From the IMG/VR virus record IMGVR_UViG_3300011114_000710, positions 1 through 39,463 of that record: a DNA stretch of 39,463 nucleotides; one strand, written 5' to 3'. This DNA comes from a virus. Each line of letters begins with the position of its first letter. The stretch's first letter is position 1. The notes under the pieces were generated by a model, which made no database searches, was not told the origin of the DNA, and saw nothing but the letters and a program-made list of their open reading frames with translations. Made by a program: the position numbers and the translations under genes. Below are positions 3,101-37,246 of the stretch, one piece after another.

Positions 3101-4708
3101 TAGTTCTGTTTGCGTCCTTTCCCAAATTGCATAATCTTTTTTACCATTGGCAATAGCAAAAGCTAAAACATCATTTATATTGCTTATATTTTGCTTTTTC
3201 TCTGCGTAATATTCTTTAGCCTTATTATTTATAACCTTTACTAATCTTTTTAAATAAGTCTGCTCTACTTCTGTAGATGGCAAATCTAAATTCTTTTCTG
3301 CGTCTTTTCTTATTCTTTCTGCGGCCAATGAAGGAGCTAATTTTACTGCTCTATCTGGGTTATTTTCTTCTTCTTTTTTTAACTTTGCTTGAGCTAACTT
3401 TTCACTTGCTTTTACCAATTTTTTAGCATCTGTTTCTTGCTGGAAATCATCTAATATAGATTGCGCTGATTCGTCAGTATCGAACAATTCTTTTTTTGCT
3501 CCGTTTTCTATTGCCTTATCTCTTACGCTTGAATATATATTTTTAAACTGACTTTTAAATCCTTTAAAGTCTTTAGACATTGTATTATACCAATCAGTAA
3601 ATTTGGTTACCCCATTTTCTATGTGGTATAAACCAAAATATGTCAGGTCTAATAAATCATCTTTAGAAACAATACTTCTTGCTCTTTGTTTAAATTCTTT
3701 TATTCTCTTGTCGTATTCTGTATCGTTTGTTATCCTTTTTATCTTCAAAGGATTCTTCTTTGTACCCTTTTGCGCTTTATCTCTTTCTAATATTTCTTTT
3801 CTTAAATTTTCAACTTCTTTTTCTAATTCAGAAACTTTTTTAGTAGTAGATTTTTCTATTTCATCTTCAGTTAATTTACCTGCGACCTCTTTAATATCAG
3901 AAGCTTCTTCCGTAATTATTTTCTTTATTTCTTTAACATTAGATTTGGTTTCACTAGCTCGTGCTTCATTCAATTCTTCAACACTTTGTACTAATTTTCT
4001 TTCAAGAGCTAAACTTGATAATTTATATATCTCTTTAAACGCATTAATAGCTCTTCCGTATGCTGTTCCTAATGTACCTAATGTTGAAGCTATTTTTTGA
4101 AGCTCTTCGTTTGCATCTATTTCTTTTCTAGCTGCTTTTTGAGCAGCGGAATCATCCCCTTCTTTTAAGCTTTCCTTTCCTAGATTCGCATAATAATCCA
4201 TTGCAGCACCTAAAATCATTGTTCTTTCTACCGGCTGTAATGATGTTGTTGGGCTAGATGCTTCAGCTACAGCTTCTGCAACCCCCATCTCTTGAATTAA
4301 CTCTAATGCTAATTTTTTAGTTTTAGCAATTGGAAGTACAGTATATAATGCATTTGGGTCGCTTTCTAATATAGACTTTTGCTCTTCAGTAAGTCCTGTT
4401 GCTCTCGTTATAATTTGCTTATAAAGAGAACGCATTCTTACTGCTTCTTCATCGCCTTTAGCTTCTTTGGTAACTTTAGTCCCTTGCTCGCTTGGTCGAA
4501 CTCTTTCACCACCTTCGGGGATATTTTTCCCTGCGCCTGTAGGACGTGAAACTTTTTCCTCTGCTGCTCGCTCTTGTATGGCATTTTGTATAGGTTTTAA
4601 TTTAGATAAATCTTGGTTTAAAAGATAATCTTTAAGTTCTGGCTCAGTAAATTCTTTAAATTCACCTTTAGCTATTTCAATAAGGTATTTGCAAGGGTTT
4701 TTTGCCAT
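146..4708 (-). CDS. Very large virion-associated protein (ejection/polyvalent type)
   Basis: A 1520-residue protein rich in Lys, Glu and Ala, with long predicted helical and coiled-coil stretches over roughly residues 60-700 and two hydrophobic segments at about 1043-1058 (MSTIGITSIILLPVD) and 1147-1165 (GVFGSAMTVAIMYAVALLN). No enzymatic motif was recognised. It is the last complete gene of the late operon, after proteins of 262, 464 and 1012 aa. That order and size ladder match the T7 gp14-gp15-gp16 internal core set and the giant cargo proteins of crAss-like phages, so a role as an internal protein ejected with the DNA is inferred. The membrane-like segments fit a protein that crosses the host envelope. 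A lytic transglycosylase motif, present in T7 gp16, was not found. The ATG lies just after the ferritin-like gene (2-bp gap). Confidence 0.6.
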   Translation of the reverse strand: MAKNPCKYLIEIAKGEFKEFTEPELKDYLLNQDLSKLKPIQNAIQERAAEEKVSRPTGAGKNIPEGGERVRPSEQGTKVTKEAKGDEEAVRMRSLYKQIITRATGLTEEQKSILESDPNALYTVLPIAKTKKLALELIQEMGVAEAVAEASSPTTSLQPVERTMILGAAMDYYANLGKESLKEGDDSAAQKAARKEIDANEELQKIASTLGTLGTAYGRAINAFKEIYKLSSLALERKLVQSVEELNEARASETKSNVKEIKKIITEEASDIKEVAGKLTEDEIEKSTTKKVSELEKEVENLRKEILERDKAQKGTKKNPLKIKRITNDTEYDKRIKEFKQRARSIVSKDDLLDLTYFGLYHIENGVTKFTDWYNTMSKDFKGFKSQFKNIYSSVRDKAIENGAKKELFDTDESAQSILDDFQQETDAKKLVKASEKLAQAKLKKEEENNPDRAVKLAPSLAAERIRKDAEKNLDLPSTEVEQTYLKRLVKVINNKAKEYYAEKKQNISNINDVLAFAIANGKKDYAIWERTQTELEEQIDADENLTEEQKQEVKEFLDDYRKSIFDTLLTKNQISAALREKLIEKGYFTEKIVNGKPVKSVNWNKIIGNASTAKEAKENIISSITDLGFTEAEAKAEINAILDKFDSEIADRKTKQINKYLNKGILNKVKAISTKVPKTSVDKLVDLNRKGLLDDAKIKDILSAELGLMTITDADLKNLREWSSKVDDENTPIFIKKEFEEKIQYLFDSKGGSINFLENRAASMSNRLSSVVNQAINLTGFTRAFTTLGTVAVKTGKPIQAARVFLKELINASQEAKTILKGRVSRGSSFDDVVGAASGPRVRYLEQGKGKFLGGKFLGKPLYLEIGGKKVDLNPINLGYSKIKYIPRLLESADTMASGAISGVTQFRVATKEINKYFPELSAAEKSQKVYDIMYSGDIAAETAKAIRDLKNSGVSEPTIAEINRTVNERVERARNERLAQEFYKQVESLNDISETKLKADGIENPTKEEILAESYKSLGAIEARDLVARGERQAARETGKMSTIGITSIILLPVDMIQKKLNQGVKNKSKAVSTLSEAGDVAFSITFPFANSIARWGEMAAELFAPYSLLKGAGYKIGAKFTSKESKISSEEYNELGDDYLARGVFGSAMTVAIMYAVALLNQTDDEEREELGKSFTGTAKEKQYAQERVQSVGKPKQTVNIRGSNIPLAFLGSQGLVIGMWADYLKLRRESKLDNNMQERMELYISSLAAMQAFGSYLLDATYLSTAKKYGSAASSLVEMKEEGYAPTLGRLAGGIISSQIPFNRLQVEAATLYNPKSQSSKEFGSNLLAQMSIVRAFQSGKPNFDYRGREYDYGDIYANSADGVRKMFGKAKYGDKIDAFLSEINFAATDAYRETRDEDNYKFSITNPDYTHRFMTNDEYYEFKRKTANKFNEQITAKYEEINRRVDKITHPERYDLDGIKKKIVSELLSEAKDEAFEEVQNSIFKPSKAKLSRAKNKEEAISEKVSSLVRKFKKK

Positions 4709-21826: not shown

Positions 21827-22993
21827 TTACGAACTAAAAGCCCATTCTGCCATCCTTAGCCTTTCAGCTTCGGTGCCATTAAGGTCTGGTTTCGCTCCTT
21901 GAGGAGTGGGGCTTTGGTTGATATTTATATTCCCGTTTTTCTTTAAATGAGCCAACAATCTTTGAGATGCTGCTTCATTTGCTATTTTTGAGAAGATTTT
22001 TTCACGATTCTCAAGCAGATATTTATCTGCCATTATTTGTTGAACTTTTGGCTTACCATCCTCGGCGAACCATCTTTTCTCAAAATATGAGTCACTATCA
22101 AAATCCGTCAAATCATTCTTCATTGCCAATCTTTCATCTTCAGCCACATTAAATGAAATCGGTATTTCGACATCCTCGTCTTTTACCGAAACATTAAATC
22201 CACTAAAGGATTGGAAATCAGAATCTAGTGTTTTTTCATAAATCGACCTTGCTTGTTGCTGAATCTCAAATTCCTCTTGAGATTCAGCTTCTCTTCCAGC
22301 CTCATTATAAATATCAGGTAACTTTATTTCACTTTTTAATTTTTCCAACTCTGGTCTAATCACTTTCGCTTCAATCATCAACTTTCGTTCTGCGTAGTCT
22401 ACTTGTGATTGCCATGTTTTTACTTTCCCAGCATAATCCTCATCGGATTCATCATAACCTTGTTCAGGCTTTAAAGGTACGAAATGTTGGTCATAAAACA
22501 AAAGCTCAACATCATCTGCTGATAAGTCTTTGTATTTATTCTTAATATTCGTTTTAACAATTTCAGCAGCCAAGTCTGGCGTTAATTCTGAACTCGTTAA
22601 TTTTTCTAACCTTTTTTGCTGATTTAAAATTTCATAAACATCATCTGCTTTGCCTTCTTTAATGGCATCAAATAACGACTTGCTTACATCATCTTTAAAT
22701 TCAAAACTTGGTTGTTCTTTAAGTTTCTTAAACTCTTGTTCAGCCTGCTCTACACTATCATAACCAAATCTTTCTTTAATAAACTGATTTGGGTCAAATG
22801 ATTGAGTAGATGCTGTTTGTTCCTCTACTTTAGTTTCCTCTTGTTGAGGAGGAGCTGCTTCTTGTGCTGGCTCATTTGTTAAGATAGGGGCTTCTTCTAT
22901 CTTAGGTTGCACTTGTGGTGCGTTATCATCCGAAAACGGATTGAAGTCCTGCTGAAGTGTTATTGACGCTTCAGTCGTTTTTGTGTTTTCCAT
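21827..22993 (-). CDS. Scaffolding protein
   Basis: A 388-aa highly acidic protein. Residues 1-70 are disordered and rich in Glu, Gln, Pro and Ala (EEAPILTNEPAQEAAPPQQE), the middle is helical and coiled-coil (about 75-280), and the C-terminal region has charged helices ending LRMAEWAFSS. Acidic, helical, low-complexity sequence directly upstream of the capsid gene is the standard signature of a procapsid scaffold; its C-terminal basic helix probably touches the capsid protein. The leader is the same ACCATTT-ATG as at the 297-aa gene. The gene immediately upstream is a homing endonuclease that ends 9 bp before this ATG. Confidence 0.75.
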   Translation of the reverse strand: MENTKTTEASITLQQDFNPFSDDNAPQVQPKIEEAPILTNEPAQEAAPPQQEETKVEEQTASTQSFDPNQFIKERFGYDSVEQAEQEFKKLKEQPSFEFKDDVSKSLFDAIKEGKADDVYEILNQQKRLEKLTSSELTPDLAAEIVKTNIKNKYKDLSADDVELLFYDQHFVPLKPEQGYDESDEDYAGKVKTWQSQVDYAERKLMIEAKVIRPELEKLKSEIKLPDIYNEAGREAESQEEFEIQQQARSIYEKTLDSDFQSFSGFNVSVKDEDVEIPISFNVAEDERLAMKNDLTDFDSDSYFEKRWFAEDGKPKVQQIMADKYLLENREKIFSKIANEAASQRLLAHLKKNGNININQSPTPQGAKPDLNGTEAERLRMAEWAFSS

Positions 22994-23002
22994 AAATGGT
23001 TT

Positions 23003-23629
23003 TTACAATTTTAATTTTGAAATAATTTTATACCCTTTATGATGATTTCTAGCAAAGCCATCATAATCTTTTCCTTTATATGTTAAAAATATAGAACTTA
23101 AATTTAAATTATTTTCTTTACTAAATTTATTTAAATTATTTATTTCTAATATACCTCCATCCGGACACAATATTTTATAAATATAAGATATTTTACTATT
23201 AGACATCTTATTTTTAATACTTTCACTTTTTTTAACCCCCAATCTAACTAAAGACATATTTTTTCGTCCTAAATCTGATATTTTTCTTCCTTTTAAAGAA
23301 TTAGACATTTTTTCCTTAGAATTACTTGTATGCCTGTATCCTAATGTACTATTTGCTTTTTTACAAATATTATACTCCGGATTTATCCAATCAATAAACC
23401 ACTGTTCTTTTTCTATACATAGTTCTGGTGGGCAAAATTGTATAATATTAAAATTAAAATTATCTTTACCATATTTGTTATATGCTTTTTGCAATATATC
23501 ACTCCTATGCCTATTTTTATTTAAATCACATTTATGAGAAGTCCATCTTTTATCAAAAGAAACAGATGTGCTGCCTATATATTTTTTACCATTTATTTTA
23601 TTTAATATTTGGTAAACTCCTGTTTGCAT
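23003..23629 (-). CDS. GIY-YIG homing endonuclease with NUMOD3 repeats
   Basis: A 208-aa protein. Residues 1-90 hold the GIY-YIG nuclease: GVYQI and YIGST strands, Arg28 in FDKRWTSH, and Glu near residue 75 (EKEQWFIDW). Residues 95-150 contain NUMOD3-like DNA-binding repeats (HTSNSKEKMSNSLKGRK; SESIKNKMSNSK). The C-terminal part is a short Lys/Asn-rich DNA-binding region. It is a free-standing selfish element inserted between a small structural gene and the scaffold gene. No intron boundaries were seen. Its AT content looks higher than that of adjacent genes, consistent with independent spread. Confidence 0.88.
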   Translation of the reverse strand: MQTGVYQILNKINGKKYIGSTSVSFDKRWTSHKCDLNKNRHRSDILQKAYNKYGKDNFNFNIIQFCPPELCIEKEQWFIDWINPEYNICKKANSTLGYRHTSNSKEKMSNSLKGRKISDLGRKNMSLVRLGVKKSESIKNKMSNSKISYIYKILCPDGGILEINNLNKFSKENNLNLSSIFLTYKGKDYDGFARNHHKGYKIISKLKL

Positions 23630-31132: not shown

Positions 31133-31473
31133 TAAAATTGGTTTTCTTCAGTTTTATTGCTTGATAATAATTGTAAACTTGTGACTCTTGCATGAAGTTG
31201 TGCCACTGTTTCTTTTGTTTTATCATTAAGATATGTTTTAGCTTCTGGCTTCCCTTCCATGTAAATCAATGTGCCTTTTTTTAAATAGTTTGCTACATTA
31301 GTTTTGTCTGTCCAATAAGCACAAGAAACCCAAGTAGTTTTATCTACATCTTGACCTTGTTGGTTTTTAAACTTTTCGCTGTAAGCCATTGAAAAATTAA
31401 TTACTGTCTTTTCATTTACATTGTTTACTGTGGCATCTTGCCCGAGTCTTCCGATTACACTAATGCGTATCAT
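31132..31473 (-). CDS. ssb: Single-stranded DNA-binding protein
   Basis: A 113-aa OB-fold protein: ISVIGRLGQDATV-NNVNEKTVINFSMAYSEKF, then TTWVSCAYW and KKGTLIYMEGKPEAKTY, the hallmark strands of bacterial and phage SSB. It is shorter than cellular SSB and lacks the long acidic tail and DDDIPF tip; it ends KTEENQF. It would coat single strands at the phage fork. It starts inside the end of the HNH gene (14-bp overlap) and is coupled to the 74-aa gene. Confidence 0.9.
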   Translation of the reverse strand: MIRISVIGRLGQDATVNNVNEKTVINFSMAYSEKFKNQQGQDVDKTTWVSCAYWTDKTNVANYLKKGTLIYMEGKPEAKTYLNDKTKETVAQLHARVTSLQLLSSNKTEENQF

Positions 31474-32062
31474 TTTTTTTAAATTTAAAATTATAAAATC
31501 TATTGTTTCTTTTTTTGTTTATATAATGAGATATTTGAGATGGATGTTTATTTAAAAACAAACCAGCTTCAGTAACTGTTTTAAATTCTTTAATTAAATT
31601 ATTTTCTTTATCATACATTAAAACACTTTTACTAGCCGGTGGTTCAATATTTTTTTCTTTATACCAGTTATTTCCTTTTTCATAAAACTTTAATCCGTTT
31701 TTATTTTTTAAAATATTTATCGAATGTTTTACATTTTCACTTTTAGAAACCCATTCAAGATTATTTACATTATTATTTAATTTATTGCCGTCTTTATGAT
31801 TAACATCTGATTTATTTTCTTTATTATCAATAAAAACTATTGCAACTAATCTGTGTACGCTATATTTTTTACTAATGCCATTTTTAAATAAAGAAACTCT
31901 TGCATATCCTTCCCTAGAAATTTCTTGTGTTTTAATTGCTTTTTTTATTAACCTTTCCCCATCCCATTTTTTAACTTTTCTTGCTTTACCATAAACAATG
32001 CCATTTGTATTAATTTCATATATACCCTCATACCCTGTAATATCTTTGATTAAATTACACAT
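31460..32062 (-). CDS. HNH homing endonuclease (NUMOD4-HNH)
   Basis: About 200 aa. The N-terminus is NUMOD4-like (DITGYEGIYEINTNGIVYGK), followed by HNH motifs: YSVHRLVAIVFI, then VNHKDGNKLNNNVNNLEWVS. The C-terminal region has a NUMOD1-like part (VLMYDKENNLIKEFKTVTEA). A longer frame begins with TTG at 32078-32080, but that TTG is the last triplet of a TATATTTG promoter box, and ATG at 32060-32062 (MCNLIKDI) fits the domain start better, so it is chosen here. It is a free-standing selfish gene between the primase-helicase and SSB, with its own promoter. Confidence 0.85.
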   Translation of the reverse strand: MCNLIKDITGYEGIYEINTNGIVYGKARKVKKWDGERLIKKAIKTQEISREGYARVSLFKNGISKKYSVHRLVAIVFIDNKENKSDVNHKDGNKLNNNVNNLEWVSKSENVKHSINILKNKNGLKFYEKGNNWYKEKNIEPPASKSVLMYDKENNLIKEFKTVTEAGLFLNKHPSQISHYINKKRNNRFYNFKFKKNDTH

Positions 32063-32077
32063 ATTTCCAATTTTTGA

Positions 32078-32085
32078 CAAATATA
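32078..32085 (-). promoter_or_regulatory. Candidate -7 promoter element (TATATTTG) of the HNH gene
   Basis: The minus strand reads TCGTATATTTG 15 nt before ATG at 32062, in the 40-bp gap after the primase-helicase. It has the same extended sequence as at 19318-19328. It decides the start codon of the HNH gene. Confidence 0.5.
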
Positions 32086-35062: not shown

Positions 35063-35608
35063 ATGGCATACAATAGTACAATAATAACAAAGAAAAAACG
35101 TTGCGTTAATTGTGGCAACATTGATTATTGGTTTTCAAAAAAAATGTGTAAACAATGCGCTACCGTACATTCTACGCAAAAAAGATTAGAAGAATTTGAA
35201 GATGATACAGAAAGTTTTCAAAATCTTGTTCAAGACCTTGACCATGTATTTAGTCAATACATTAGAAATAGGTATGCAGATAAAACTGGTATTGTTGAAT
35301 GTTATACTTGTGGTAAAAAACATACAATTGCAGAAATACAATGCGGTCATTTTATGGGTAGGTCAAATTTAGGTACAAGATGGCTAGAGGCTAATTGCAG
35401 ACCACAATGTATGGAATGTAATTACTTTAAAACCGGTAATATAGAAGAATTTGAGTACAAATTACATGAAGAAAACAATGCTATAGTTGAATATTTAAGA
35501 GAAACAGCTAGGCAAACAGCAAAACCTACAAAAGATGAGCTAAAAGGCTTAATCCTAGAATACAGGGCAAAGCTAAACTTGGTAAAAAAGAAATTTATTG
35601 AAAAATAA
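35063..35608 (+). CDS. NinG/Rap-like recombination protein
   Basis: A 181-aa protein with N-terminal zinc-type pairs CVNCGNIDYW and CKQC (residues about 13-33), a helical middle (QDLDHVFSQYIRNRYAD), then CYTCG, QCGHFMGRSN, NCRPQCMECN, which is the lambda NinG signature of Cys pairs around a GHF/H motif in an HNH-like nuclease. The C-terminus is a helical Lys-rich tail. It would act at Holliday-type junctions in phage recombination. Own promoter upstream and strong terminator downstream make it monocistronic. Confidence 0.85.
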   Translation: MAYNSTIITKKKRCVNCGNIDYWFSKKMCKQCATVHSTQKRLEEFEDDTESFQNLVQDLDHVFSQYIRNRYADKTGIVECYTCGKKHTIAEIQCGHFMGRSNLGTRWLEANCRPQCMECNYFKTGNIEEFEYKLHEENNAIVEYLRETARQTAKPTKDELKGLILEYRAKLNLVKKKFIEK

Positions 35609-35654
35609 TTTGTATTTTTACGGTGGTTATCATAGTTTGTAGATTAGTTTTCTA

Positions 35655-35686
35655 CCCCATGTTTTAGAATGACATGGGGTTTTTTA
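35655..35686 (+). terminator. Strong intrinsic terminator after the NinG-like gene
   Basis: CCCCATGT and ACATGGGG arms (8 bp, perfect) with a 9-nt loop, followed by TTTTTT. It begins 46 bp after the stop codon. Confidence 0.92.
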
Positions 35687-35688
35687 TC

Positions 35689-35799
35689 GCTCATATATGA
35701 GCCGTTTATCAATCAAATACGGCTCAAAGTTGCCTTATTAGGTAACTTTTGTGATTGATAAAGTTTACTATTAGCGAACTTTGTAACCAAATTGGTAAC
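35689..35799. other. Dense cluster of overlapping inverted repeats
   Basis: In 111 bp: GCTCATATATGAGC (perfect palindrome, 35689-35702); GAGCCGT/ACGGCTC (35699-35725); TTTATCAATCA/TGATTGATAAA (35705-35715 with 35752-35762); AAAGTTGCC/GGTAACTTT (35726-35749, one mismatch); AAAGTT/AACTTT (35760-35782); GTAACCAA/TTGGTAAC (35783-35799, one mismatch). Several share arms or interlock and so cannot all form together. No gene covers this stretch. Candidate origin, regulatory RNA or protein-binding array. Confidence 0.7.
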
Positions 35800-35832
35800 A
35801 AAAAAAGGCCCTCAACGTAAAAACGTAAGGGC
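35800..35832 (-). terminator. Minus-strand intrinsic terminator
   Basis: GCCCT/AGGGC and ACGT/ACGT arms (35808-35832), followed on the minus strand by a run of seven T. There is no minus-strand gene just upstream, so it must end a short transcript or read-through from the right. Confidence 0.7.
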
Positions 35833-35866
35833 GATAACCTTTAAACCTTTAACTATGTCTTATGCA
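35800..35866 (-). ncRNA. Candidate short minus-strand RNA
   Basis: A TATATTTG element at 35870-35877 (minus strand) and the terminator at 35800-35832 bound a possible transcript of about 65 nt with no long frame; it could encode only a 4-codon peptide (ATG at 35864-35866). It contains AAAGGTTTAAAGGTT before the hairpin. No known RNA family was recognised. Both ends are predictions. Confidence 0.3.
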
Positions 35867-35869
35867 TCA

Positions 35870-35877
35870 CAAATATA
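35870..35877 (-). promoter_or_regulatory. Candidate -7 element (TATATTTG) of the short minus-strand RNA
   Basis: The minus strand reads TATATTTG, pointing toward the terminator at 35800-35832. No -33 box seen. Confidence 0.3.
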
Positions 35878-35884
35878 CAAATAT

Positions 35885-35929
35885 TTAATTAAATTTATTT
35901 TTTTAATTAAATTAATTAAATTAATTTTG
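35885..35929 (+). promoter_or_regulatory. AT boxes and candidate promoter of the plus-strand recombination operon
   Basis: TTAATTAAA occurs at 35885-35893, 35903-35911 and 35912-35920, and a 15-bp stretch (35906-35920) is the reverse complement of the boxes at 29875 and 29906. The -7 element TAATTTTG (35922-35929) follows after one base and lies 16 nt before ATG 35946. As at the late promoter, no TTG -33 box exists and the AT box occupies that position. Confidence 0.5.
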
Positions 35930-35945
35930 CGTTAAAACACACAAC

Positions 35946-36143
35946 ATGGCAAGAAGTATTTCCCCCGATTCGGTTTCCAGTAAGGTAGCCGACTTAACAT
36001 TAGGCGAGCATCTTAGGTTAGATAACCCATACACATCTGTAATGGTTATGGTATCTAATTTAAAGAAAAAAGAAGCCCACAAAGACAAACTATTCAAGAT
36101 TAAAGCTACTGACAACACAACCATTGTAACCAGAATTAAATAA
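35946..36143 (+). CDS. Small unknown protein, first of recombination operon
   Basis: A 65-aa protein, MARSISPDSVSSKVADLTLG then DNPYTSVMVMVSNLKKKEAH, ending TTIVTRIK. It is not recognised. The central VMVMVSNLKKKEA and end 'VTRI' recall short phage proteins with a small DNA-binding or barrel fold, which is a weak resemblance. It is placed directly after a promoter and leads the operon of five genes; the next ATG is 10 bp downstream. A frame on the opposite strand is a shadow. Confidence 0.55.
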   Translation: MARSISPDSVSSKVADLTLGEHLRLDNPYTSVMVMVSNLKKKEAHKDKLFKIKATDNTTIVTRIK

Positions 36144-36517: not shown

Positions 36518-37246
36518 ATGAATTGGAATGAAACACTAATCAGAGCAAGCTCTGTAGGATACTTAATGACTGAACCGGTAACCAAAGCGGATAAAGAAGC
36601 TGGGTTGCTTTCTAAGACCGCACAAAAACATTTGCTAGATGTATATATTTCTGAAAAGTATAATAGGAGAAGAGATATTCAAACAAAGCAAATGAAAAAG
36701 GGAATTGAAGTAGAGCAAGAATCAATTGATTTATTGTCTATGTTCTTAAAGAAACCTTTTACTAAAAATACGGAAAGATTTTCAAATAAACACATAACAG
36801 GATTGCCAGATATTATTGATGATGGGATTATTGATATTAAATCTAGTTATGACCTTTGGACATTTTTAGGTAACATTCCAGATAAATTAGATAATCTATA
36901 CTATTGGCAGATGATGTCTTACATGTGGCTTACTGATAAAACCAAAGCGACCATTGCCTATTGTCTTGTAAATACCCCAGATAATATTATCCAACAAGAA
37001 AAGTATTATCTACTTAAAAAGCTAGATGTAATCTCAGAAGAAAGCCCAGAGTTTGTAAGAGAAGCAATGAAGCTAGAATTGAACATGAAGTTTGATGACA
37101 TAGCTATTGAAGAAAGAATACTAATGTTTGACGTTAGTAGAAACGAAGATGATATTTTACGCATTCAGCAAAAAGTAGAAAGAGCAAGAGAATTTTTACA
37201 AGATATTGAAAACACCCACAAAAACTTTAACAATGGCAAAAGCTAA
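36518..37246 (+). CDS. YqaJ/lambda-exonuclease-like nuclease (PD-(D/E)XK)
   Basis: A 242-aa nuclease. Motifs: RASSVGYLM at the start, KKGIEVEQESIDLL (residues about 61-74, Glu of the first helix), ITGLPDIIDDGIIDIKSSYD (about 93-112: D, D-x-K catalytic core) and YYWQMMSYMWLT (Q-x3-Y) after it. These are the order and spacing of the YqaJ/lambda Exo/RecB nuclease family. It probably resects double-stranded ends for phage recombination. No recognisable annealing protein (Erf, RecT, Beta) was found beside it. Confidence 0.82.
   Translation: MNWNETLIRASSVGYLMTEPVTKADKEAGLLSKTAQKHLLDVYISEKYNRRRDIQTKQMKKGIEVEQESIDLLSMFLKKPFTKNTERFSNKHITGLPDIIDDGIIDIKSSYDLWTFLGNIPDKLDNLYYWQMMSYMWLTDKTKATIAYCLVNTPDNIIQQEKYYLLKKLDVISEESPEFVREAMKLELNMKFDDIAIEERILMFDVSRNEDDILRIQQKVERAREFLQDIENTHKNFNNGKS

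Follow-up and report, generated by a model that had tools for sequence, protein, structure and literature searches.

In T4-type phages, promoter early stem-loops (PeSLs) are stem-loop cassettes tied to gene shuffling between phages (PMC4503421). The array described here is alike in that it also consists of stem-loops in phage genomes and may lie at sites of gene exchange. A PeSL is a promoter joined to one stem-loop and occurs many times per genome, whereas no promoter-like site was found in the array studied here, and such arrays string together as many as ~17 different hairpins in one order, mostly as one array per record. In organelles, the repetitive hairpin-forming elements of sponge mitochondria and the palindromic repeats of Volvox are structurally alike but sequence-diverse palindromes, which enlarge intergenic gaps and are scattered among relatives (PMC2800124, PMC2670323). 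Organelle palindromes multiply within one genome, whereas the phage array is single, ordered and common to several lineages. The head unit of the array, termed U, has 11-bp inverted ends and in this resembles a miniature element. In contrast to the REP/BIME and MITE-like elements of bacteria, the phage array is not high-copy, and neither a RAYT nor any other transposase was seen among the genes neighbouring arrays. In chloroplast DNA, small hairpin-loop inversions flip a hairpin in place between its arms. A hairpin of our array is likewise flipped in place in one relative, but the chloroplast flips occur neither in phages nor in ordered arrays. The array is near in kind to mobile hairpin elements and PeSLs and differs from them by its order, copy number and spread. 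Our literature search, which cannot show absence from print, yielded no recognisable description of such an array.

The array was studied in a virus record of 39,463 bases from IMG/VR, and we refer to this whole stretch of DNA as the window. The repeats lie in the gap between a NinG/Rap-like junction endonuclease gene (35063..35608, + strand; Pfam NinG 5.6e-13; PHROG 5034 1e-23) and a conserved 65-aa gene (35946..36143, + strand), beyond which a RecE-like exonuclease gene is found (36518-37246). Terminator prediction placed an intrinsic terminator on the + strand 3' of the NinG gene (35654..35685, with the hairpin at 35654-35680 followed by a T tract). Unit U starts at 35683 within this T tract, so that the two overlap. 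At the right border of the array stands a - strand terminator-like hairpin with T7 (35800..35832, hairpin 35807-35832), which was recognised by eye and is missing from the terminator prediction list. The large terminase of the window belongs to PHROG 6681, and 86 of its 87 deposited relatives, all below 60% identity, are named after Flavobacterium, Cellulophaga, Tenacibaculum or Maribacter; the deposited NinG relatives are of mixed origin. Judged from these sequences, the host of the virus is likely a member of the Bacteroidota. The -7 promoter consensus of Bacteroidota is TAnnTTTG. By pattern matching, a promoter-like site (TAATTTTG, 35922..35929, + strand) was located ahead of the 65-aa gene, and TATATTTG (35870..35877, - strand) fits TAnnTTTG. 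Between 35683 and 35799 neither TAnnTTTG nor a listed sigma-70-like site was found. On the - strand of 35800-35877, the promoter-like TATATTTG is followed after ~40 nt by the terminator-like hairpin, a constellation that could yield an RNA of ~65 nt.

The initial annotation had described six inverted repeats within the 111 bp of 35689-35799, and all of them are present. The first palindrome, GCTCATATATGAGC (GCTCAT/ATGAGC, 35689..35702), overlaps a motif termed A and, as had been claimed, shares 35698-35702 with the second, the GAGCC hairpin P2 formed by TGAGCCGT / ACGGCTCA (35698..35726). The pair TTTATCAATCA/TGATTGATAAA (35705-35715 with 35752-35762) matches exactly and indeed interlocks with the GAGCC hairpin in pseudoknot order. 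Hairpin P3, AAAGTTGCC..GGTAACTTT (AAAGTT..AACTTT, 35726..35749), is flipped or replaced in some relatives, and a further AAAGTT..AACTTT hairpin, AAAGTTTACTATTAGCGAACTTT (35760..35782), is the module after U. Module h4, GTAACCAAATTGGTAAC (35783..35799, delimited by eye), ends this short array. It is the sole imperfect repeat of the six, with one A.A mismatch, and comes after U in many arrays. The density of inverted repeats at 35689-35799 is high, though not unique by arm counts alone. The perfect-arm coverage of the exact 111 nt is 37, a value matched by 0.6% of scanning windows; the top 111-nt scanning window of the record starts at 35654 (score 55) and overlaps the repeats, but two windows elsewhere, at 23037 and at 49, score 43. 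With other settings (200-nt windows, loops <=16), position 22760 ranked first (42) and 35579 second (32). Folding of the 111 nt gave -32.2 kcal/mol on the + strand (z -5.1, 0/200 shuffles as good) and -25.8 on the - strand (z -3.2, 2/200 shuffles as good).

Unit U covers ~79 nt (35683..35762, + strand) and is composed of motif A, the GAGCC hairpin with motif B in its loop, P3 and motif C. All three motifs are forms of TTRTCRNTCA. Motif A (TTTATCGCTCA, 35683..35693, + strand) lies in direct orientation 22 nt ahead of B (TTTATCAATCA, 35705..35715, + strand, within the P2 loop), and C (TGATTGATAAA, 35752..35762, - strand) is an inverted copy that can pair with A or B. A degenerate pattern of the GAGCC hairpin matched at least 119 viral stretches. 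Once neighbouring loci were added, U was recovered in 59 distinct sequences, with the layout A (TTTATNNNTCA), a short spacer, TGAGCCG, the B-bearing loop, CGGCTCA, P3 and C (TGANNGATAA). Its length is 79 nt in 54 of them, 80 nt in four and 67 nt in one; this steady length is partly imposed, because the unit pattern fixes ranges for each part. The 54 units of 79 nt were aligned and the five others excluded. In the alignment, the positions of A, B and C are near-invariant, and so is the P2 stem, which is partly built in by the search design.

Pairing of B with C is retained in 95.2% of cells, with many A-to-G changes opposite the base U, and its covariation score was matched by 17/500 shuffles. 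For A-C, 89.8% of cells are paired and 365/500 shuffles matched the covariation score. B matches C better than A does in 28 of the 54 units, equally well in 24 and worse in 2. A nested A-C helix as the native form was dropped, given its 89.8% pairing without covariation against 95.2% for B-C. In the covariation analysis that the initial annotation had called for, the pairs are conserved, while covariation is weak for B-C and absent for A-C. Pairing of P3 survives sequence replacement in some contexts (covariation 0.188 vs 0.115, 0/500 shuffles). When the structure was slid by -1, more doubly changed cells were counted for P3 (26 vs 15), yet only 42.9% of cells pair; we attribute this excess to P3 hairpins that have been replaced and whose pairing register is shifted. 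RNAalifold retained the GAGCC stem alone on the aligned units, without covariation. The interlock of A or B with C exists because the loop motif B copies the end motif A and both are complementary to the inverted C, and its conservation in relatives chiefly reflects that of the three motif copies. The competing pairs, which had been regarded as typical of a switch, are therefore conserved as three motif copies, and a switch function is not supported by the strand and family tests described below.

Relatives of the locus were collected in two scans, with 80 loci taken from 230 and 80 from 232. Both flanking genes were present in 146/159 loci, which gave 72 distinct intergenics with lengths from 133 to 1607 nt. 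Since a good part of the loci come from overlapping contigs of nearly identical phages, identical sequences were removed, and the counts ignore kinship. The NinG proteins of these relatives are mostly 80-99% identical. The core of the array is present in 57 of the 72 distinct intergenics, and hence the region is conserved rather than absent from near neighbours. A terminator-like site near NinG (first 110 nt) occurs in 60/72 intergenics and a comparable - strand terminator-like pattern in 50/72. TAnnTTTG is found on the - strand of the last 140 nt in 56/72 and within the last 60 nt in 70/72. The - strand promoter-like site and terminator-like hairpin noted above both recur in many relatives. 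In six of the 72 intergenics the NinG terminator is absent (L039:3480-3500, L018, L051, L057, L058, L126); here the NinG frame extends into the unit and its stop is the TGA of TGAGCC, with an earlier NinG stop present too in L058.

Comparison of these intergenics shows gain, replacement and inversion of single hairpins. The longer ones contain many extra palindromes, and that of locus L062 contains a gene resembling T5orf172 proteins. In L052, P3 is the exact reverse complement of the P3 of the window; the GAGCC hairpin on its left is unchanged, whereas to the right of P3 similarity to the window breaks off after a short distance and C is absent. Compared with L070, L072 carries a 48-bp insertion in the terminator T tract, bounded by TTTATCAATCA and TGATTGATAAA (A and C motifs), and at this place L075 has a different hairpin of 32 bp. 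The ends of the 48-bp insertion are terminal inverted repeats of the MITE type, and the ends of U are similar, often imperfect. A target duplication is unreadable in L072 because the insertion lies in a T tract.

Seventeen module patterns, composed by hand from sequences seen, recovered 102 distinct arrays, each made up of four or more and at most ~17 palindromic modules. Reading of the arrays gave the order U, h4, catg, ccga, taaca, gtagt, tgcaag, gttcac, gttgca, ttgtac, cactt, agtaac, gtaaag, actca, inverted U, tagtgtca, ggtggat. U heads the longer arrays, or closes them in inverse direction, and each array is a subset of the modules in this one kept order. Among pairwise module orders, 1554/1705 follow the majority (0.911), whereas 500 shuffles averaged 0.599 and never exceeded 0.632; these counts rest on 82/102 arrays, the 20 that were not orientable being left out. 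An order learned solely from 26 arrays of context I (NinG junction, membership assigned by hand) was upheld in 56 others by 821 pairs and violated by 23, with 100 pairs carrying no information.

The arrays occupy at least seven gene contexts, and the phages that carry them encode large terminases of three kinds, which are unlike each other (cluster 2 scores best against Terminase_3 and cluster 28 against Terminase_6, while that of the window is in PHROG 6681). Context I is the gap between NinG and the 65-aa gene, plus a variant with other left-hand genes. Context II lies between a small terminase (PHROG 4044, 4.5e-5) and a large terminase gene, context III, found also in the phage-like contig L273, in a block of genes one of which encodes a virion structural protein, and context IV between two small proteins without family. 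Further contexts include a site adjoining the cluster 28 large terminase and single cases, e.g. L175, L204/L207 and L249. Context III gaps range from 80-99 nt without recognisable modules, via one or two hairpins, to 763 nt; among 62 distinct gaps U is forward in 15, reverse in 1 and missing in 46. In context IV, 13 listed cases comprise 1 forward and 12 reverse units. In context II, 38/63 gaps contain U, all 38 in one orientation. One contig (L267 / L106 / L303) has context-III genes upstream of the array and context-I genes downstream; either recombination at the array or a chimeric assembly would account for it.

Within a record the array is mostly single. The GAGCC hairpin (<=3 mismatches) was found in 25/30 records, once in 24 and twice in G013; the five records without it had been picked for NinG sites without core. 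Two units, one per direction, were seen in 3/115 loci (L219, L239, L252), and in L252 several genes lie between the forward and the inverted unit. Array-like 15-mers formed one large cluster (137 to 353) in the window and in four long records, other clusters reaching at most 3; in the 66-kb record G026 this search found no cluster and detected no array. A dispersed multi-copy repeat was ruled out by these counts per record. An origin from host chromosomes was rejected as well: genome contigs gave 4 pattern matches, of which three lack other modules and were judged by eye to be chance, and the fourth, L273, appears by eye to be a phage-like contig of a Chitinophagaceae MAG. With three queries, blastn against deposited phages, a collection that may omit records very near the window, returned no array; one query gave a 42-nt match in the A+T-rich promoter region.

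These observations show that the unit is conserved, that arrays are subsets of modules in a kept order, that they stand in several contexts and in both orientations, that one hairpin has flipped exactly, and that empty as well as filled sites exist. We consider it reasonably probable that the 111 bp are a short copy of a DNA-level, non-coding palindrome array common to phages of probable Bacteroidota hosts, whose modules are gained, lost, replaced and flipped. In favour of this reading stand the kept module order, the different contexts and unlike large terminases, the two orientations, the exact flip of P3, the insertion in L072, the range from empty to filled gaps, the lack of strand preference over whole arrays and the mostly single array per record. 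The array would lodge in intergenic gaps, often directly 3' of an intrinsic terminator, where an insertion should cost little. Template switching at hairpins together with recombination might drive the turnover of modules, and whole arrays would pass horizontally between phage lineages. The array may then be selfish or neutral, and not a signal that the phage needs. Several findings argue against this reading. If the hairpins were selfish, several copies per genome would be expected, and yet records as a rule have a single array. The steady 79 nt of U and the hardly varying positions of A, B and C suggest selection on a recognised site, although the search patterns favoured such sequences. An excess of G.T over A.C cells within U would suit RNA but is small by distinct states, and all 38 unit-bearing gaps of context II share one orientation. 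Terminator-like sites are also more frequent on the canonical strand, in part through the inclusion of flanks, and neither a transposase among the neighbours nor a legible target duplication was seen.

More tentatively, such arrays might constitute a hitherto undescribed class of phage element: non-coding, mostly single-copy and ordered, with a head unit of ~79 nt, exchanged between phages that are unrelated but infect the same host group, and lodged behind terminators either way, possibly as a recombination platform for the exchange of genes including junction and homing endonucleases. Idle DNA is thought to be scarce in phages, and an optional, ordered, non-coding array that occurs alongside unlike terminases would amount to a passenger of a new kind or else to a new device for recombination or insulation. 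It could explain swaps of gene blocks at these junctions, and its empty, partial and full sites let the gain and loss of palindromes be read directly.

Alternatively, the array could be kept as a two-way transcription insulator, in which a strong terminator and many weak hairpins, A-rich on their left flanks and T-rich on their right, block read-through between two transcription units. The context I array does sit between a + strand terminator and a - strand terminator-like hairpin, and elsewhere arrays repeatedly start in the T tracts of different terminators, as judged by eye. Terminator-like sites number 0.72 per array on the canonical strand vs 0.07 in shuffles (controls 0.19 vs 0.10), an excess that arises partly because flanks, in some cases with the flanking terminator, were included in the stretches counted. 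On the other strand there are 0.25 per array vs 0.09 in shuffles (controls 0.09 vs 0.16). However, relatives manage without the array at the same junction, with gaps of 80-99 nt, and insulation has no need for a kept module order. We regard this explanation as improbable.

A somewhat less probable explanation is an RNA element, either a switch in which A and B compete for C or a large non-coding RNA built of many hairpins that include optional ones. Strong folding, the kept hairpin order, the persistence of P3 pairing and the preference for B-C with its A-to-G changes are in line with this idea. Cells within U also show more G.T than A.C (B-C 61 to 5, A-C 57 to 5, P3 63 to 14), which reduces to 5 to 4, 4 to 2 and 6 to 5 when distinct column states are counted. 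On the contrary, whole arrays revealed no strand preference. Single stem mismatches were G.T in 26 cases, A.C in 21 and other in 85 (control 132, 123 and 532), counted on arrays cut by a different rule than those used for order, n=102 in both being a coincidence. Folding of 32 arrays sampled from the 102 gave z -6.2 for one strand and -5.9 for the other (controls -0.7). Rfam returned 0 matches at gathering threshold in the window and, at E<=1 in 8 array loci, one sub-threshold tmRNA match (12.2 bits vs 47). The weak or absent covariation, the terminator-like hairpins on both sides in context I and the wide range of intergenic lengths also speak against an RNA element. The switch proposed in the initial annotation is consequently unsupported, since whole arrays showed no strand preference and the unit stands in both orientations at two junctions. 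Furthermore, the + terminator cuts the unit off from the upstream gene, and the downstream gene has its own promoter-like site.

Least probable in our view is a replication, recombination or packaging signal, in which A and B, 22 bp apart, and inverted C would be protein-binding motifs read as DNA or as a cruciform, perhaps by a phage junction endonuclease: mostly one array per record, the steady unit with its near-invariant motifs, the NinG/Rap and RecE-like neighbours in context I, the terminase genes in context II and an Endonuclease VII-like gene within some arrays fit such a role, but location and orientation vary, other contexts have different neighbours including a virion structural protein, and the search of G026 found no array. 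The initial suggestion of a single-strand origin likewise gained no positive support, as GC skew broadly follows gene strand and that 66-kb record is without an array.

Compared with these alternatives, a shared palindrome array acting at the DNA level remains our preferred reading. Some further observations concern the ends of contigs and the genes at arrays. Contig ends form inverted repeats of exactly 1295 bp in G027 (L290/L293) and of 123 bp in G004 (L282/L285), and in G006 (L286/L289) the final 99 bp repeat, in reverse complement, positions 4569-4667, which adjoin the array; such ends are either real inverted termini or an assembly effect. Genes beside or within arrays, of which one representative each was searched, resemble Endonuclease VII (L167, L217, L204, L265), T5orf172 plus HTH (L188, L201, L252) and HNH_3 (L198, L268), and L175 has a GIY-YIG-like protein at the array, as identified by eye. 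The window itself encodes an HNH endonuclease (31460-32080, - strand; PHROG 59, 4.9e-39) between the genes for a single-strand binding protein (PHROG 44) and a primase/helicase.
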